Shown: positions 8,167 to 39,443 of the stretch, one piece after another
How positions within the stretch are numbered: the first letter of the stretch is position 1
Layout: the number at the start of each line of letters is the position of its first letter
Source: Pelomonas cellulosilytica
GTDB taxonomy: Bacteria > Pseudomonadota > Gammaproteobacteria > Burkholderiales > Burkholderiaceae_C
NCBI RefSeq assembly: GCF_021353265.1
Contig: NZ_JAJTWU010000002.1
Coordinates: 248,001-312,000 of the forward strand
DNA length: 64,000 bases
Direction of reading: 5' to 3'
The notes under the pieces: model-generated
Databases searched by the model: none
What the model saw: the letters and a program-made list of their open reading frames with translations, nothing else
Told to the model about the DNA's origin: nothing
Made by a program: the position numbers and the translations under genes

Positions 8167-9485
8167 GTCTCGGCGTTCTCCGTCTTCCGGCCGAAACCGT
8201 CGGGGATTTTGATGAGCGCCGCCATCGCCACGCTGGGCAGCGTGGCGAGCAGCACCCAGCCGAAGAAGGGCACGTAGCCCAGGTGGTCCTGCAGCCAGCC
8301 GCTCCACATGCCCGGAATCATCATGCCCAGCGCCATGAAGCCGGTGCAGATCGCGTAATGCGCCGTCTTGTGCTGGCCTTCGGCCACCAGGATCATGAAC
8401 ATCAGGTAAGCCGTGAAGCCGAGGCCGTAGCCGAACTGCTCCACCGCGAGCGCGCCGCTGATGACCCACAGACTGGTCGGGTGCGTCAGCGCCAGCGCCA
8501 GGAAGGCGACGTTGGGCAGGTGCATGGCGATGACCAGCGGCCACAGCGCGCGCTTCAGGCCCACTCGCGAGATCACCCAGCCGCCCACCAGCCCGCCCAG
8601 CGTCAGCGCGATGAGGCCCACCGTGCCGTAGGCGATGCCGACCGACTGCGTTGTCAGGCCCAGGCCGCCCTTGTCCGCCGGATCCAGCAAGAAGGGCGAC
8701 GCCAGCTTCAGCAGTTGCGCCTCCGGAAATCGGTATAGCAGCAGGAAGCCGAGGATGACCGCGATGCCCGGCTTGCGGAAGAAGCTTACGAACACGGCGA
8801 AGAAGTCCGCCACCAGACCGCGTGCGGCGGCCCGTCCGGGCCCGGCCGCGTCGCTTGCCGGCCGCGGCAGCGCGACGGCATGCCACAGCCCCAGCACGCC
8901 GAACAGCGCCGCCAGCCCCCAGAACACGCCGCTCCACGCGGTGATGACCGAGCCGCTGCGCTCGGCCCATTCGCCGGCCAGGTAGACAAGGGCGCCCTGG
9001 CCCGTGATGTTGGCCAGGCGGTAGAACGTCGAGCGCACGCCCACGAAGGCGGCCTGGCTGTGCTGGGGCAGCGCCAGCATGTAGAAGCCGTCGGCCGCGA
9101 TGTCGTGCGACGCCGAGGCGAAGGCCATCAGCCACAGCACGGCCAGCGACAGCTGGAAGGCGCGGTCCGTGGGCAGCGTCAGCGCCACGCCGGCGAGAGC
9201 CGCGCCTACGAAGAACTGCAGCACTGTCACCCAGCCTCGCTTCGTGCCGAACAGCTCGGCCAGTGGCGACCACAGCGGCTTGATGACCCAGGGCAGGTAG
9301 AGCCAGCTGGTGTAGAGCGCGATGTCGGTGTTGGAGATGCCCAGGTTCTTGTAGAGCACGACCGACAGCGACATCACCGTCACGTACGGCAGGCCCTGCG
9401 CGAAATACAGCGAGGGCACCCAGGCCCACGGGGATGTCTGCCCCTGGCCCGCCGGGGGGATAGGCCCTGCCATGGTGTTCGTCAT
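8163..9485 (-). CDS. ampG: AmpG-like muropeptide MFS transporter
   Basis: A 440-residue, roughly 12-helix MFS carrier of the AmpG type, with the motifs SLYFAQGLPYVTV at the first helix, FASASHDIAADGFY in the middle and VEQFGYGLGFTAYL late in the protein. AmpG takes GlcNAc-anhydroMurNAc peptides from the periplasm into the cytoplasm. The ATG at 9485 overlaps the murQ stop and its own stop overlaps the digH start, so import is coupled to MurNAc-6-phosphate breakdown. It is paralogous to the MFS gene at 4828-6144; genomic context makes this copy the better AmpG candidate. Confidence 0.82.
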   Translation of the reverse strand: MTNTMAGPIPPAGQGQTSPWAWVPSLYFAQGLPYVTVMSLSVVLYKNLGISNTDIALYTSWLYLPWVIKPLWSPLAELFGTKRGWVTVLQFFVGAALAGVALTLPTDRAFQLSLAVLWLMAFASASHDIAADGFYMLALPQHSQAAFVGVRSTFYRLANITGQGALVYLAGEWAERSGSVITAWSGVFWGLAALFGVLGLWHAVALPRPASDAAGPGRAAARGLVADFFAVFVSFFRKPGIAVILGFLLLYRFPEAQLLKLASPFLLDPADKGGLGLTTQSVGIAYGTVGLIALTLGGLVGGWVISRVGLKRALWPLVIAMHLPNVAFLALALTHPTSLWVISGALAVEQFGYGLGFTAYLMFMILVAEGQHKTAHYAICTGFMALGMMIPGMWSGWLQDHLGYVPFFGWVLLATLPSVAMAALIKIPDGFGRKTENAET

Positions 9486-10363
9486 GCCGACAGCGCGCGG
9501 CTCACGCTGCCATCGGCCGCGTCCAGCAGCGCACGCGCCTCGCCGGCCGGCATGCCGCGCTTGAGCATGACGAGGGCGGTCTTCACATGGTGGTCGCACT
9601 GCGCGAGCGCGGCTTGCGCGTCGGCCTCGCTGGCGCCGGAGGCGCGCACGGTCAGCGCCAGCGCCCGCTTCACGAGCTTGGCGTTGGTGGCCTTCAGGTC
9701 CACCATCAGGTTGCCGTAGACCTTGTGCAGCTTCACCATCAGCGACGACGAGAAGGTGTTCAGCGCGATCTTCTGTGCTGTGCCGGCTTTCAGCCGCGTG
9801 CTGCCCGAGATCACTTCGGGGCCTGTGTCCAGCACGATGCCGATGTCGGCCTGGCTGGCCACAGGCGCGCCGGGGTTGTTCGCGATTCCGATGGTCAGCG
9901 CGCCGGCCGCGCGCGCCGCTTCCATGGCGCCCAGCACATAGGGGGTGCCGCCCGAGGCGGCCAGCAGCAGCGCGACGTCGTTGGGGCCGGGCTTCAGCGC
10001 GGCGAGGTCGGCGCCGCCCTGGGCGCGGTCGTCCTCGGCGCCCTCGACGGCGACGAACATCGCGCCCGCACCGCCGGCGATGACGGCCATCGCCCGCTCG
10101 CGCGGCCAGGAGAACGTCGGGTAGAGCTCCACGCTGTCCAGTACGCCGAGGCGCCCGGACGTGCCGGCGCCGGCGTACAGCAGCCGGCCGCCCGCGCGGA
10201 TGCGCGGCAGCGCGGCGTCCACGGCGTCGGCGAGTTGCGGCGCCGCCGCCTTTACGGCGGCGATGGCAGCGGCCTGGTCGTCGATGAAGGCATCCAGAAG
10301 CGCCGGCGTGTCGTAGGTGTCGAGGTCGGGATGCCGCGTGCTCGGGGTTTCGGTGTTCAGCAT
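9482..10363 (-). CDS. murQ: N-acetylmuramic acid 6-phosphate etherase
   Basis: A 293-residue MurQ, near the usual family length. It cleaves the lactyl ether of MurNAc-6-phosphate to give GlcNAc-6-phosphate and D-lactate in cytoplasmic peptidoglycan recycling. The SIS domain begins with GAGTSGRLGVLD near residue 67, immediately followed by VELYPTF, which holds the conserved catalytic glutamate. The phosphate-sugar motif LKAGTAQKIALN is also present. It is the first gene of the murQ-ampG-digH-grpB operon. AnmK or MurK and NagZ, needed to supply the substrate, are not in the window. Confidence 0.93.
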   Translation of the reverse strand: MLNTETPSTRHPDLDTYDTPALLDAFIDDQAAAIAAVKAAAPQLADAVDAALPRIRAGGRLLYAGAGTSGRLGVLDSVELYPTFSWPRERAMAVIAGGAGAMFVAVEGAEDDRAQGGADLAALKPGPNDVALLLAASGGTPYVLGAMEAARAAGALTIGIANNPGAPVASQADIGIVLDTGPEVISGSTRLKAGTAQKIALNTFSSSLMVKLHKVYGNLMVDLKATNAKLVKRALALTVRASGASEADAQAALAQCDHHVKTALVMLKRGMPAGEARALLDAADGSVSRALSA

Positions 10364-10458
10364 GGGAAATGGGCGTTGGTCCGCTGGACTCTACCGGGCA
10401 TGACCAACGCCACGCATTGCCGCCGGCCCGCCGGGTCATCAGAATCCGTCGGCCGGCT

Positions 10459-10484
10459 GTAAGGAGCGGGGCACGACGCCCGAC
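10459..10484 (+). promoter_or_regulatory. Candidate ECF-sigma promoter of the bufferin operon
   Basis: Upstream of the precursor gene lies GTAAGG (10459-10464), exactly 16 bp, then CGAC (10481-10484). From memory, the ECF factor SigF of Caulobacter, which drives its own bufferin-type operons, uses a GTAACC-N16-CGAA promoter. The match is seven of the ten specified bases with identical spacing. Transcription would start near 10490, leaving a leader of about 85 nt before the ATG. No sigma or anti-sigma gene is present in the window. Confidence 0.45.
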
Positions 10485-10573
10485 GGACGCTGGCAAGTCG
10501 ATGCCGGGGCCTTCCAGGCTCGACCTGTGGTGAACCCGATCTCAACCACTCACTACCTTTTCTGGAGAGTCAC

Positions 10574-10831
10574 ATGAACGCTTCCTTCAAGTCGGGCCTC
10601 GGCATCGCCGCTGCGGCCGCCGCCCTGTTTGCCACCACCGCCATCCCGACGACCGCCGCCGCGGCCGACGGCATGGTCAAGTGCTCCGGCGTCAACAGCT
10701 GCAAGGGCACTTCCGAATGCAAGACGGCCACCAGCGGCTGCAAGGGCCAGAACGGCTGCAAGGGCCAGGGCTGGGTCAGCAAGAAGAGCGCCGAGGAGTG
10801 CACGAAGGCGGGCGGCAAGGTGGAGAAGTAA
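10574..10831 (+). CDS. bufA2: Bufferin-type RiPP precursor, six cysteines
   Basis: An 85-residue exported precursor peptide of the BufA2 type. Residues 1-31 form a Sec signal peptide ending in an alanine run. The mature part has six cysteines (37, 43, 49, 56, 62, 76) in the repeating pattern C-x5-C-KG-x3-C-x6-C-KGQN-x-C-KGQGW. In studied bufferins, selected cysteines are converted by the MNIO enzyme into thiazole- or thiooxazole-type copper ligands, and the exported peptide protects against copper. A good Shine-Dalgarno (GGAGAG) precedes the ATG. bufB and bufC follow on the same strand. Which cysteines are modified cannot be told from sequence. Confidence 0.88.
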   Translation: MNASFKSGLGIAAAAAALFATTAIPTTAAAADGMVKCSGVNSCKGTSECKTATSGCKGQNGCKGQGWVSKKSAEECTKAGGKVEK

Positions 10832-10867
10832 GACCACCAGCCCCCTTACAGGGGCGCCCTCAGCTGA

Positions 10868-10927
10868 CCGGCAAAGCCGGATCCGCGAGGGCTGCTGGAG
10901 GAGGCGCGACGCTGCAGGCGTCGCGCC
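10868..10927 (+). other. Stem-loops between bufferin precursor and maturase
   Basis: The 114-bp gap between precursor and maturase genes holds a 5-bp stem (CCGGC, loop AAA, GCCGG; 10868-10880) and a perfect 10-bp stem (GGCGCGACGC, loop TGCAG, GCGTCGCGCC; 10903-10927). A shorter CCCC/GGGG hairpin lies just upstream. No T-run follows, so this is not a classical intrinsic terminator. It sits 18 nt before the bufB ATG, which has no recognisable Shine-Dalgarno. It may protect the precursor mRNA 3' end or reduce maturase expression. Confidence 0.6.
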
Positions 10928-10945
10928 ATCACTGCCGAAACACCC

Positions 10946-11773
10946 ATGACATCGATCCAAGGCTTCGGCCTCGGTCTGCGCGTGGAGCATTACGCCGCCT
11001 TCGAGGCGGGTGTGGATGCTCAACGGCGGCCCGACTGGCTGGAGATCATTTCCGAGAACTACCTCGTGCCGGGCGGGCCACCGCTGGCGCACCTGGAGCG
11101 CATCCGGGCGGACTACCCGCTCGTCATGCATGGCGTGTCGCTGTCGGTCGCGGGGCCGCAGCCGCTGGACCTGGCCTACCTGCGCGAGCTCAGGGGCCTG
11201 GCCGACCGGTTGCAGCCGGGCTGGGTGTCCGACCACCTCTGCTGGAGCGCTGACGCGCACAGCCAGCTGCACGACCTGCTGCCCGTGCCGCTGACGCGTG
11301 CCGCGCTCGACCACGTCGGCAGCCGCATCGCGGAGGTGCAGGACGCGCTCGGCCGCCCGCTGGTGCTGGAGAACGTGTCCAGCTATGTGCGCTTCGCGGC
11401 CGACGAGATGACCGAGTGGGACTTCATCACCCAGCTGCTGAAGGCCACCGGTGCGGAGCTGCTGCTGGACGTCAACAATGTCTACGTGTCGAGCCGCAAC
11501 CACGGGTTCGACCCCATCGCCTACCTTGATGCCGTGCCCGCCGGACGCGTTCGGCAGATCCACCTCGCCGGCCACGAGGACCGCGGCGACATCGTCATCG
11601 ACACGCACGACCACCCGGTGCGCGACGAGGTCTGGGCGCTTTACCGGCATGCGGTACGGCGCCTGGGGACCGTGCCGACGATGATCGAGCGCGACGACCA
11701 CATCCCGCCGCTGGACGGCCTGCTGGCCGAGCTCGAGGTGGCCCGGCGGCTCGCTGCGGAGGCCGTGGCATGA
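10946..11773 (+). CDS. bufB: MNIO-family (DUF692) bufferin maturase
   Basis: A 275-residue TIM-barrel enzyme of the multinuclear non-heme iron oxidase family (DUF692, relatives of MbnB). It would use a mixed-valent iron cluster and oxygen to modify cysteines of the adjacent precursor in the cytoplasm before export. Conserved metal-ligand segments are visible in order: [52 protein letters not shown] and IERDDHIP. It follows the precursor after a structured gap and overlaps bufC by ATGA, as expected if BufB and BufC form a complex. Confidence 0.9.
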
Positions 11774-12546
11774 GCGTGACGGCGCAACAGCGTCAGCTTG
11801 CCGCGGCCATCCGCGACGGCGCCGAGGCCGACGGCCTGCTGGCCGGCGACTTCGCGCTCGGGTTGCAGGTCTACCGCCATGCCTACCGCGCCAGGCTGGC
11901 CGATGCGCTGGTCGACAACCACACCGTGCTGGCCCGCGCGCTGGGCGACGAGGCCTTCGATGCGCTGGCGCACGCGTACATCGCGACCCACCCAAGTCGG
12001 CATCCATCCATCCGCTGGTTCGGCCATGCGCTGGCCGACTTCATGGCCGATGCCGGCGACGACCTCGTGCCGCATGAAAGCCTCATCGATATCGCCCGCA
12101 TGGACTGGGCGCTGCGCGGTGCGTTCGACGCTGCCGACGCGCCGCTGTTGGCCCCCGAGAACCTTGCGGCGCTGAGCCCCGACGACTGGGCGGGCCTCCA
12201 GCTGCGTCTGCACCCGAGCGTGCAGCGCGTGGCGCTGGCCCATGCCGTCGAGCCGGCATGGCGGGTGTTGCGCGAGTGGGACCCCGACACGGGCGCCGAC
12301 CAGCCCGAGCTGCCGGAGCCACGGCCGCATGCTCACGTGCTGCTGGCCTGGCGCCAGGGGCTGGAGACGCGCTGGCGTTCGCTGGAGCCGCTGGAGGCGA
12401 CGCTGCTGGATGCGGTCGCGGCGGGCGAGACGTTCGCGCAGTTGTGCGAACGCGCCGCGGCCGTGCTGGGCGATGCCGACGCCGCGGCGGCGGCTGCCGT
12501 GGGCCTGCTGCAGCGCTGGCTGGCCGACGGCCTGCTTCAGCGCTGA
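11770..12546 (+). CDS. bufC: Bufferin-system partner protein (DUF2063)
   Basis: A 258-residue protein with an N-terminal DUF2063 domain ([11 protein letters not shown], then [16 protein letters not shown] and [22 protein letters not shown]). DUF2063 proteins are often annotated as putative DNA-binding, but in MNIO operons they act as the substrate-recognition partner of the oxidase. The C-terminal half is variable and mostly helical. Its ATG overlaps the bufB stop. Its end overlaps by 10 bp the 3' end of the convergent lipoprotein gene, so the operon ends here. Confidence 0.85.
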
Positions 12547-13406
12547 CCGTCGTAGGTCAGCGCATGCGTGGCCACCCGCGTCGGGCGCAGGAAGCCGTGC
12601 TGGTTCATCGTCGGCGCCACGGTGCCCGAGGCGCCTGAGTGTCGCCAGGCCACCGTCAGCTGGCAGCGTGACACCAGCGGCGTCGTGGCCACGTCCTTGT
12701 TGGCGCGCCGGCTCTCGGCGTTCAGGGCGTCGTCCACGCCCGAGGCAACCAGCCGGTAGCCGCCGGCGATGCTGTCTTCGCTGGCGTAGAACAGTGCCGC
12801 GCCATCGACCGCGAAACTGCTGTTGTCGGTGCGGCTGCAGCTGCCGGTGGCGGCGGGCGAGGTGTCTCGCATGGTCGACAGGGTCAGTCGCACCGGCAAG
12901 TCGGGCGAGGTGCGCGTCAACACCGCCATGCCTGTCGGCTGCAGCACCGTGAAGCGTGCCGGCATCGTCGCCTCGCTGACGTGGCGCACACCGGCCCGCG
13001 TGAACACGATGCGCACGACCGGCTGCGCACTCGTCGCGCGCAGCGTGGCCTTGTAGCGCATGCGGTTGCCGGACACGTCCGCCATGGCGACCTCGGCGCC
13101 GCCGTCCACGCTGGCGGTCAGGCTCTCGTTGGCGGCGGGCTGCACCGTCGTCAACAGGTTGGCCGACTTGCCGAGCGACCCCTCCACGACGACCTGCGCC
13201 TCGTCGTCCGTCTGCGTGACGGTGAATTGCGGGCTGATCTCGTCGACGTTGAGCGTGGAGGACTCCGTGCAGTTGGTGATGGCGCACGTCAGCCCCTGGG
13301 CCATGGCATCGGCGACGGGACTGAAGTCAGGCGCCACCCCGCCACAGGCGGAAAGCACGATGGCGGGCAGCAGCAGTGCCGGGGCGTGGCGGCATGGGGT
13401 CTTCAT
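12537..13406 (-). CDS. Hypothetical lipoprotein
   Basis: A 289-residue lipoprotein of unknown function. The N-terminus has a typical lipobox with Cys21 (VLSACGG). The rest is rich in beta-strand-forming, Thr/Val/Ser-rich sequence without a motif I recognise. It is convergent with bufC and their 3' ends overlap by 10 bp, so antisense interference is possible. I have no functional assignment. Confidence 0.7.
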   Translation of the reverse strand: MKTPCRHAPALLLPAIVLSACGGVAPDFSPVADAMAQGLTCAITNCTESSTLNVDEISPQFTVTQTDDEAQVVVEGSLGKSANLLTTVQPAANESLTASVDGGAEVAMADVSGNRMRYKATLRATSAQPVVRIVFTRAGVRHVSEATMPARFTVLQPTGMAVLTRTSPDLPVRLTLSTMRDTSPAATGSCSRTDNSSFAVDGAALFYASEDSIAGGYRLVASGVDDALNAESRRANKDVATTPLVSRCQLTVAWRHSGASGTVAPTMNQHGFLRPTRVATHALTYDGQR

Positions 13407-13510
13407 GAGTCCTCACCTGATGTGTTTTGATGCGGCCGCGATACTAGCCAGTCGCCGTGACGCCTCCGACCGTGCGCCGCGGCGTGAATCTTCACATCAA
13501 AGGAGTCGTC

Positions 13511-14056
13511 ATGTCGTTGCGTACTTTCGGGGCATCCCTGGCCGTGCTGGTTGCGTGGCTTGGCGCCGTTAGCTCGGCCCACGCGTCGCTGGCCGTCGGC
13601 GCCCCCGCGCCTGACTTCACGGCAGACGCCGCCGTCGGCGGCCAGCCGTTCAAGTTCCGCCTGGCGGACGCGCTGAAGAAGGGCCCGGTGGTGCTGTACT
13701 TCTACCCCAAGGCCTTCACGAGCGGCTGCACGGTCGAGGCTCACCAGTTCGCCGAGGCGACCGACAAGTTCAAGTCGTTCAACACGACGGTCATCGGTAT
13801 GTCCAACGACGACATCGACACGTTGAAGAAGTTCAGCGTCGAGGCCTGCCGCAACAAGTTCGCCGTGGCGGCGGACGCCAAGGGCAAGGTCATCAAGGAC
13901 TACGACGTGTCGTTGAAGATGGTGCCCGGCACGATGGCCGACCGCGTGTCTTATCTCATTGCGCCGGACGGCAAGGTCGCCGCCGTGCATGCGAGCATGG
14001 ACCCGGACGGCCACATCGACGCGATGCTGAAGGCTGCGGAGAAGCTGAAGAAGTGA
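13511..14056 (+). CDS. Exported peroxiredoxin (BCP/AhpC-TSA type)
   Basis: A 181-residue peroxiredoxin that reduces peroxides through cysteine chemistry. A Sec signal peptide (residues 1-26, ending SSAHA) sends it to the periplasm, which is unusual for BCP-type enzymes. The active-site motif YPKAFTSGC places Thr70 and the peroxidatic Cys73; Cys113 (VEACRNK) is a likely resolving cysteine. The ATG at 13511 is preceded by AAAGGAG, which decides the start over upstream in-frame codons. Its stop overlaps the GTG of the amidase gene, so the two are coupled. Confidence 0.88.
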   Translation: MSLRTFGASLAVLVAWLGAVSSAHASLAVGAPAPDFTADAAVGGQPFKFRLADALKKGPVVLYFYPKAFTSGCTVEAHQFAEATDKFKSFNTTVIGMSNDDIDTLKKFSVEACRNKFAVAADAKGKVIKDYDVSLKMVPGTMADRVSYLIAPDGKVAAVHASMDPDGHIDAMLKAAEKLKK

Positions 14057-39366: not shown

Positions 39367-39416
39367 GATGCCTCCAGCCGCTGCAGCGGAACCCGCTTCG
39401 CCGGGCCGCTAGCAGC

Positions 39417-39443
39417 GCCCCCTCGGGGGCCGGCGTCAGCCGG
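39417..39443. repeat. Twin GC-rich hairpins in intergenic region
   Basis: GCCCCC-TC-GGGGGC (39417-39430) is followed by CCGGC-GTCA-GCCGG (39430-39443). Hairpins of this kind recur in intergenic spaces of Burkholderiales and look like a short REP-type element. The surrounding 39367-39622 has no convincing gene: a short reading frame on the minus strand (39456-39644) and one on the plus strand have no recognisable family. Confidence 0.45.

Follow-up and report, generated by a model that had tools for sequence, protein, structure and literature searches.

The window, that is, the whole stretch of 64,000 nucleotides that was analysed (C12:248001-312000 of a 6.35-Mb genome in 29 contigs), contains an operon that adds a member to the described BufA2 family of bufferins. 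The observation is real, had been named correctly in an earlier sequence-only reading and is mostly ordinary; the part worth following up is the shared ECF wiring. The explanation that best accounts for the data taken together, and which we consider highly probable, is a BufA2 bufferin operon of a Roseateles/Pelomonas-type bacterium in which BufBC would modify four Cys-Lys cysteines of a precursor that would then chelate copper in the periplasm, with ECF control exerted by a sigma factor encoded beside bufA1 and with hairpins that maybe favour the precursor mRNA. For the Burkholderiales family sampled, we regard it as fairly probable that the stand-alone bufA2 is wired in trans into a bufA1-centred ECF regulon, that this wiring has been switched between a TIGR02943 type (TGTAAG..CGAC) and a SigF-NrsF type (GTAACC..CGAA) with the promoter matching the type, and that a hairpin between the precursor and maturase genes may set their ratio as a second layer.

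Identity of the operon and its products

The operon consists of the following genes:

10574..10831, plus strand: bufA2, encoding an 85-aa precursor with a Sec-type signal at about residues 1-31 (by eye) and a six-Cys core; match to NF050166
10946..11773, plus strand: bufB, encoding a 275-aa MNIO (DUF692) maturase; matches to PF05114, NF050167 and 3bww
11770..12546, plus strand: bufC, encoding a 258-aa PME-type 1 partner with a DUF2063 domain; match to PF09836

All three open reading frames were found where the sequence-only reading had placed a bufA2-bufB-bufC operon (10574-12546), and an ATGA overlap joins the bufB stop and the bufC start. The profile search by which that reading had proposed to decide on the BufA2 subtype places the peptide inside the family, with 91.6 bits (E=2.7e-26) for the NCBIfam model Cu_RiPP_BufA2 (NF050166; cut-off 60). 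Similarly, BufB scored over the cut-off with both the NCBIfam model MNIO_BufB (NF050167; 363.7 bits, cut-off 310, E=5e-109) and Pfam PF05114 (357.2 bits, cut-off 25), in agreement with the MNIO (DUF692) enzyme that had been named, and its top sequence match in the PDB is the MNIO 3bww (E 1.1e-43). The proposed DUF2063 partner was borne out by a match of BufC to PF09836 (80.6 bits, cut-off 27.2), and the length of 258 aa lies within the 250-260 aa given for PME-type 1 partners, which have a C-terminal RRE domain in addition, in the accessible part of PMC12452194. The sole NCBIfam partner model matched by BufC was HvfC, with an alignment that spans residues 6-256 and a score under the cut-off (47.4 versus 142 bits). 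When sequence matches in the PDB were sought, none was obtained for BufC at E ≤ 0.1 or for the BufA2 profile A1 at E ≤ 1. The Sec signal of BufA2 was read by eye as an Ala-rich hydrophobic stretch, and no Cys is present upstream of Cys37, so that BufA2 has no lipobox.

As far as they are described in the accessible part of PMC12452194, the BufA2/Buf2 (Buf_6/12Cys) bufferins of NF050166 resemble the window in combining an exported six-Cys precursor with an MNIO and a DUF2063 partner in one operon, and no difference was found at the level of the proteins. In the main text of PMC12452194, neither the promoter nor the spacer features of the window are mentioned. The oxazolin system HvfABC of Haemophilus, in which the partner is needed for the active iron state (PMC13419390), has a similar MNIO/partner architecture, but it is unlike the window in its EGKCG-type repeats, and BufB, like BufC, stayed under the Hvf cut-offs (267.9 versus 360 bits for HvfB).

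Convergent with bufC, a 289-aa protein is encoded at 12537-13406 (minus strand) for which no Pfam or NCBIfam match was found at E ≤ 1. A peroxiredoxin (AhpC-TSA) with an apparent signal peptide is encoded near the operon at 13457-14056 (plus strand).

Cysteine pattern of BufA2 and active site of BufB

The precursor has cysteines at positions 37, 43, 49, 56, 62 and 76, as had been claimed from the letters alone. Their reported regularity holds for the first five and not for the sixth (spacing 5, 5, 6, 5, 13), and the reported 'KGQN repeats' had to be dropped, with KGQN present once and the recurring unit being Cys-Lys at 43, 49, 56 and 62; no Lys follows Cys37 or Cys76. Two overlapping sets of loci were used for comparison, 56 loci in genomes of the same taxonomic family and the best 80 matches in named genomes. 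From these, 135 BufA2 peptides were obtained (59 from the 56 same-family loci and 76 from the best 80 named loci, some genomes being shared), which represent 115 distinct cores. Six cysteines were present in 115 of 115 cores and are invariant in alignment A1 (12 sequences), and the spacing was 5-5-6-5-13 in 74 cores and 5-5-6-5-12 in 41. Lys followed Cys2, Cys3, Cys4 and Cys5 in 115, 108, 115 and 115 of the 115 cores, respectively, under a parsing pattern that required Lys after Cys2, Cys4 and Cys5 and rejected 0 of the 135 peptides, four named loci having been dropped earlier by a similar Lys-demanding pattern. After Cys1 and Cys6, Lys was found in 3 and 10 of the 115 cores.

BufB of the window carries ERDD at residues 248-251, where Asp250 matches the catalytic base and Asp251 the residue for Cys-Lys specificity, as given in the available text of PMC12668002. 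D250 is conserved in 51 of 51 aligned BufB sequences and ERDD in 45 of them, the other six having ERDA or ERDE, and the paralogous BufB1 of the same genome has EWDT in this place. The same available text describes a Cys-Lys precursor group and ties an Asp residue to Cys-Lys substrates (FonB-Asp249, BufB2-Asp251); in its model, BufB2-Asp251, next to the catalytic Asp, is in contact with the Lys of the substrate. The Cys-Lys captophorins of that paper (BufA2B2C2 model) have in common with the window the Cys-Lys motifs and an MNIO in which the catalytic Asp is followed by another Asp. In contrast, the chemically solved fontiphorin is there of the Lys-Cys (EGKCG) type, unlike the Cys-Lys type of the window, and FonBC is reported to have failed to process a Cys-Lys test substrate.

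Because Lys follows the inner four cysteines across the family and seldom follows those corresponding to Cys37 and Cys76, residues Cys43, Cys49, Cys56 and Cys62 are likely thiooxazole sites, and the earlier proposal that some of the six cysteines are modified can be narrowed to these four. According to the accessible part of PMC12452194, the central cysteines of Buf1 are modified and the outer two are disulfide-bonded. Combined with the Cys-Lys pattern, this leads to the prediction that 43, 49, 56 and 62 would be modified and that 37 and 76 would be paired, a Cys37-Cys76 disulfide being the more likely arrangement by analogy to Buf1. For Buf2, the same part of PMC12452194 reports an equal mass loss per Cys and a similar band at 305 nm and does not identify the modifications, and the Cys-Lys pattern offers a sharp mass-spectrometry prediction for this subtype.

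Structure of the spacer between bufA2 and bufB

The following structured features were recognised:

10836..10903, plus strand: structured intercistronic element composed of a short first hairpin and a three-tier hairpin; dispersed elsewhere in the genome
10903..10927, plus strand: 11-pair hairpin GGCGCGACGCT-GCA-GGCGTCGCGCC with one G-U pair and no U-tract, between bufA2 and bufB
39369-39434, minus strand: second copy of the element (55.8 bits), by eye directly after a coding region

The region 10829-10948, which covers the 114-nt spacer, folds with -63.6 kcal/mol (z -5.31), and 0 of 200 shuffles were as stable. Strong folding was also found for 58 spacers from the best 80 named loci (median z -3.03; 46 of 58 below -2), as compared to 35 control spacers between co-directional ORFs (median z -0.47; 7 below -2; Mann-Whitney p 2.4e-9), the controls having been taken with a crude ORF caller and scored with 30 shuffles instead of the 40 used for the test spacers. 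These 58 spacers derive from 76 loci, 14 loci without a nearby MNIO start and 4 with a spacer of <40 nt being left out, and their starts were set by a crude start rule. A U-rich tail behind the hairpin was seen in 11 of 33 spacers of the same-family locus set. No terminator-like site was found when an intrinsic terminator was sought in 10350-12700, and a search of 9400-13500 against Rfam was negative at E ≤ 1.

The defined element was found in 13 of the 58 spacers; 12 of them come from the top 15 named rows (L135-L149), and the thirteenth is that of L154. Alignment A2 comprises 18 copies of the element (L102 was omitted for a register misfit; L093 and L139 had no pattern match). In its main helix (helix 2), 98.9% of the cells are paired, and 8 of 15 pairs have changed on both sides. 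None of 500 shuffles reaches the covariation score or the count of changed cells, but neither the doubly changed pairs (matched by 102 of 500 shuffles) nor the pair types (475 of 500) stand out. The short first helix is paired in 85.6% of the cells and shows no compensating change. The notion that the element is unique to the bufA2 operon was rejected on the basis of dispersed copies in the own genome, including the one at 39369-39434.

With at least 19 matches in the own genome at E ≤ 0.01 (150 of 10,501 candidates scored), the operon copy and the copy at 39369-39434 among them, it is quite conceivable, though somewhat less likely than not, that the spacer hairpins are mere dispersed REP-like repeats between bufA2 and bufB that play no role in the operon. 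Spacers fold strongly without the element too, however, given that many more of them lie below -2 than contain it, and the control spacers fold more weakly. These points speak against mere repeats. In the reading that we prefer, the hairpins may act on mRNA stability or by attenuation and, being located after bufA2, may hold the precursor mRNA above the maturase mRNA. Attenuators exist in other RiPP operons; a literature search for an attenuation role returned nothing on the point.

Predicted ECF-type promoter upstream of bufA2

Aligning the upstream regions of bufA2 genes exposed a tGTAAG..CGAC motif, which in the window marks a predicted promoter that begins 116 nt before the bufA2 ATG:

10458..10484, plus strand: predicted ECF-sigma-type promoter with -35 TGTAAG (10458-10463), 17 nt and -10 CGAC (10481-10484)

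In its strict form (TGTAAG-N14-18-CGAC), the motif was present within 350 bp upstream in 35 of the 56 same-family bufA2 loci, with a background of 2 matches per 735,392 bases (both strands). We defined class A as NGTAAG..CGAC (any first base) and class B as GTAACC..CGAA, the latter resembling the sequence GTAACC-N16-CGAA that the accessible part of PMC3511200 gives for Caulobacter sigF. By these definitions, 42 of the 56 loci belong to class A, 5 to class B and 9 to neither, and the 47 loci with A or B compare to a background of 8 matches in 735,392 bases. Among the best 80 named loci, 76 were parsed (L199, L202, L208 and L212 were left out). The strict motif was present in 33 of these, class B in 3 and a relaxed form in 17, and 23 had no form of it, with bufA2 starts set by a crude start rule by which L136 was scored 'none' with an upstream start chosen.

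In the four genus genomes searched (own, G030, G156 and G238), a class A element precedes both bufA2 and bufA1. More widely, bufA1 was found in 19 of 23 loci (none in L120, L123, L124 and L126), and 8 of the 19 parsed loci carry class A; by eye, the remaining ones often have TGTAAGAA..GAC, and one has TGTAAC..CGAA. Motif sites that by eye seemed to lie within sigma coding sequence were discounted. Genome-wide, the motif alone is unspecific, as TGTAAG..CGAC occurs at 10 sites of the own genome versus 32 for the reversed control; of these 10 sites, those at bufA1 and bufA2 are claimed, and L110 and L114 were inspected from the other 8. The site C23:228352 of the own genome was weighed as a third regulon member, and the 140-aa exported protein encoded downstream of it matched no family.

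A third variant, TGTAAG..GCGTC at -93 to -107, was noted in L163, L165, L168, L171, L173, L174, L175, L182 and L200, loci which among the best 80 named are labelled Propionivibrio, Accumulibacter or Rhodocyclaceae or are without assignment. In G238, a TGTAAGG..CGAC site is followed after 90 nt by the gene for an exported 135-aa protein with a Met-/Cys-rich segment (L227), which may likewise belong to the sigma regulon and have to do with metals. G030 (L219) and G156 (L229) each encode a similar exported protein, of 132 and 133 aa respectively, at a distance of 76 nt behind a class A site; a search of the own genome for proteins of the L219/L229 type, run with no positive control, returned no match.

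Proposed link between bufA2 and the sigma factor encoded beside bufA1

The own genome contains one BufA2 and two MNIO genes. The MNIO gene outside the bufA2 operon is part of a bufA1 operon on contig C26, which by family matches also encodes a PF10048 peptide and, by eye, partner and DoxX-like ORFs, and which is divergent from a gene for an ECF sigma factor and a small anti-sigma factor. This Buf1/BufA1 (DUF2282) system is like that of bufA2 in having an MNIO beside the precursor and the same promoter motif, and unlike it in that its PF10048 peptide is of another family and in that the sigma and anti-sigma genes are adjacent. The ECF gene beside bufA1 scored 291.6 bits with NF009173 and 229.5 bits with TIGR02943, and a TIGR02943 gene adjoins bufA1 in 4 of 4 genus genomes.

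In the same-family genomes, TIGR02943 is commoner where BufA2 is present (45 of 52 genomes versus 93 of the remaining 247), with matches in 36 of 40 class A genomes, in 2 of 5 class B genomes and in 7 of 7 genomes of neither class. NrsF was found in 5 of 5 class B genomes, which represent five genera, versus 1 of 40 class A genomes (Fisher p 4.9e-6), the association tests taking genomes as independent and ignoring kinship; G296, which lies below the cut-off and is not a BufA2 genome, is left out of the NrsF list.

It seems unlikely to us that a different sigma factor from that encoded beside bufA1 reads bufA2, or that bufA2 is read mainly from a housekeeping promoter, and that the motif is just a common ECF-type consensus. 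The promoter class tracks the presence of NrsF across five genera, bufA1 has the same element next to the sigma gene in all four genus genomes, and no sigma-70-like promoter was found in 10350-12700. What favours another sigma factor is that 4 of 40 class A genomes (G103, G116, G212 and G047) gave no TIGR02943 match; three of these have remote ECFs only (31-35% identity) and G116 has none at E ≤ 1e-10, and near the remote ECFs one GGTAAG..CGAC only was found. A second point in its favour comes from Cupriavidus metallidurans, in which gig expression rose, and did not fall, once the adjacent sigma gene rpoQ had been deleted (PMC10304878, available text), a rise that the authors explain by compensation while still assuming control by RpoQ. 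We consider it likely that bufA2 is controlled by a stress sigma factor whose gene lies at another place in the genome, which is a new and testable proposal.

In Caulobacter, the ECF sigma factor SigF controls two MNIO-DUF2063 operons of the bufferin type, one of them in trans; both are induced by copper and the sigF mutant is copper-sensitive, according to the accessible parts of PMC3511200 and PMC8224329. The likeness of this SigF-NrsF system to the window would lie in the wiring, whereas the candidate here is an ECF of the TIGR02943/PRK12520 type with an anti-sigma factor of family NF052368 and a different promoter consensus. The precedent is loose, since the available text of PMC3511200 names the peptide of the trans operon DUF2282 and since the BufA2 model matched 0 of 14 control genomes, Caulobacter vibrioides among them; the accessible part of PMC12452194 assigns a Buf2 to C. 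vibrioides. The latter source, as far as available, describes sigma genes in Buf1 but not in Buf2 clusters and no NrsF in Buf2 clusters, and thereby leaves the control of Buf2 open. A literature search whose reach did not extend to the original bufferin paper gave no prior statement of such wiring for BufA2 outside Caulobacter. If true, the conserved promoter and its sigma/anti-sigma link would provide a directly testable answer on Buf2 control, and bufferin regulons would become predictable from sequence.

In two genomes, G027 (L046) and G210 (L053), NrsF is encoded at most 1.5 kb from bufA2, which runs against the statement on Buf2 clusters in the available text of PMC12452194.

Proposed mode of action

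The ECF sigma factor from the bufA1 locus would direct transcription from the ECF promoter, and both bufferins would therefore be induced together by envelope metal stress. BufC would bind the unmodified precursor and activate BufB, a multi-iron oxidase that would convert Cys43, Cys49, Cys56 and Cys62 to 5-thiooxazoles, with a change of about -4 Da each. Sec export would carry the peptide to the periplasm, where Cys37 and Cys76 would probably pair and the heterocycles would chelate copper. For the window peptide, we infer copper buffering and cysteine modification from characterised relatives (PMC12452194 and PMC12668002).

A main job of the modified peptide other than with copper, such as with another soft metal or in oxidative or sulfur stress, under a sigma regulon that answers general envelope stress, is improbable in view of the copper sensitivity of the Caulobacter sigF mutant, even with the response of the SigF regulon to chromate and cadmium too (PMC3511200 and PMC8224329, accessible parts), the induction of gig operons by gold as well as copper (PMC10304878, available text), the MerC-Buf2 fusions reported in the accessible part of PMC12452194 and the three scanned operon neighbours, none of which is a copper protein and one of which is the peroxiredoxin.

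Distribution of BufA2 and variant loci

Of 299 genomes examined from the same taxonomic family, 52 have a BufA2 over the cut-off. Among the best 80 matches in named genomes, the top identities were 95% for a Burkholderiales MAG and 93% for Roseateles caseinilyticus; a Roseateles or Pelomonas label is found on 10 of the first 15 rows, and alpha-, gamma- and deltaproteobacterial records are present.

In 11 of the 56 same-family loci (L038, L040, L046, L047, L050, L052, L053, L054, L057, L062 and L066), the BufB and BufC matches lie within a single open frame of 1.7-1.9 kb, a sign that MNIO and partner may be naturally fused; activity is reported for an artificial HvfBC fusion (PMC13419390). Five further loci of this set (L064, L077, L079, L080 and L082) have bufA2 with no bufB or bufC match in the fetched flank, L077 being cut off by a contig end, and possibly represent orphan precursors. 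Tandem bufA2 genes were also observed, with three consecutive copies in L084 and two in L052, the latter near a bufA1-type gene.
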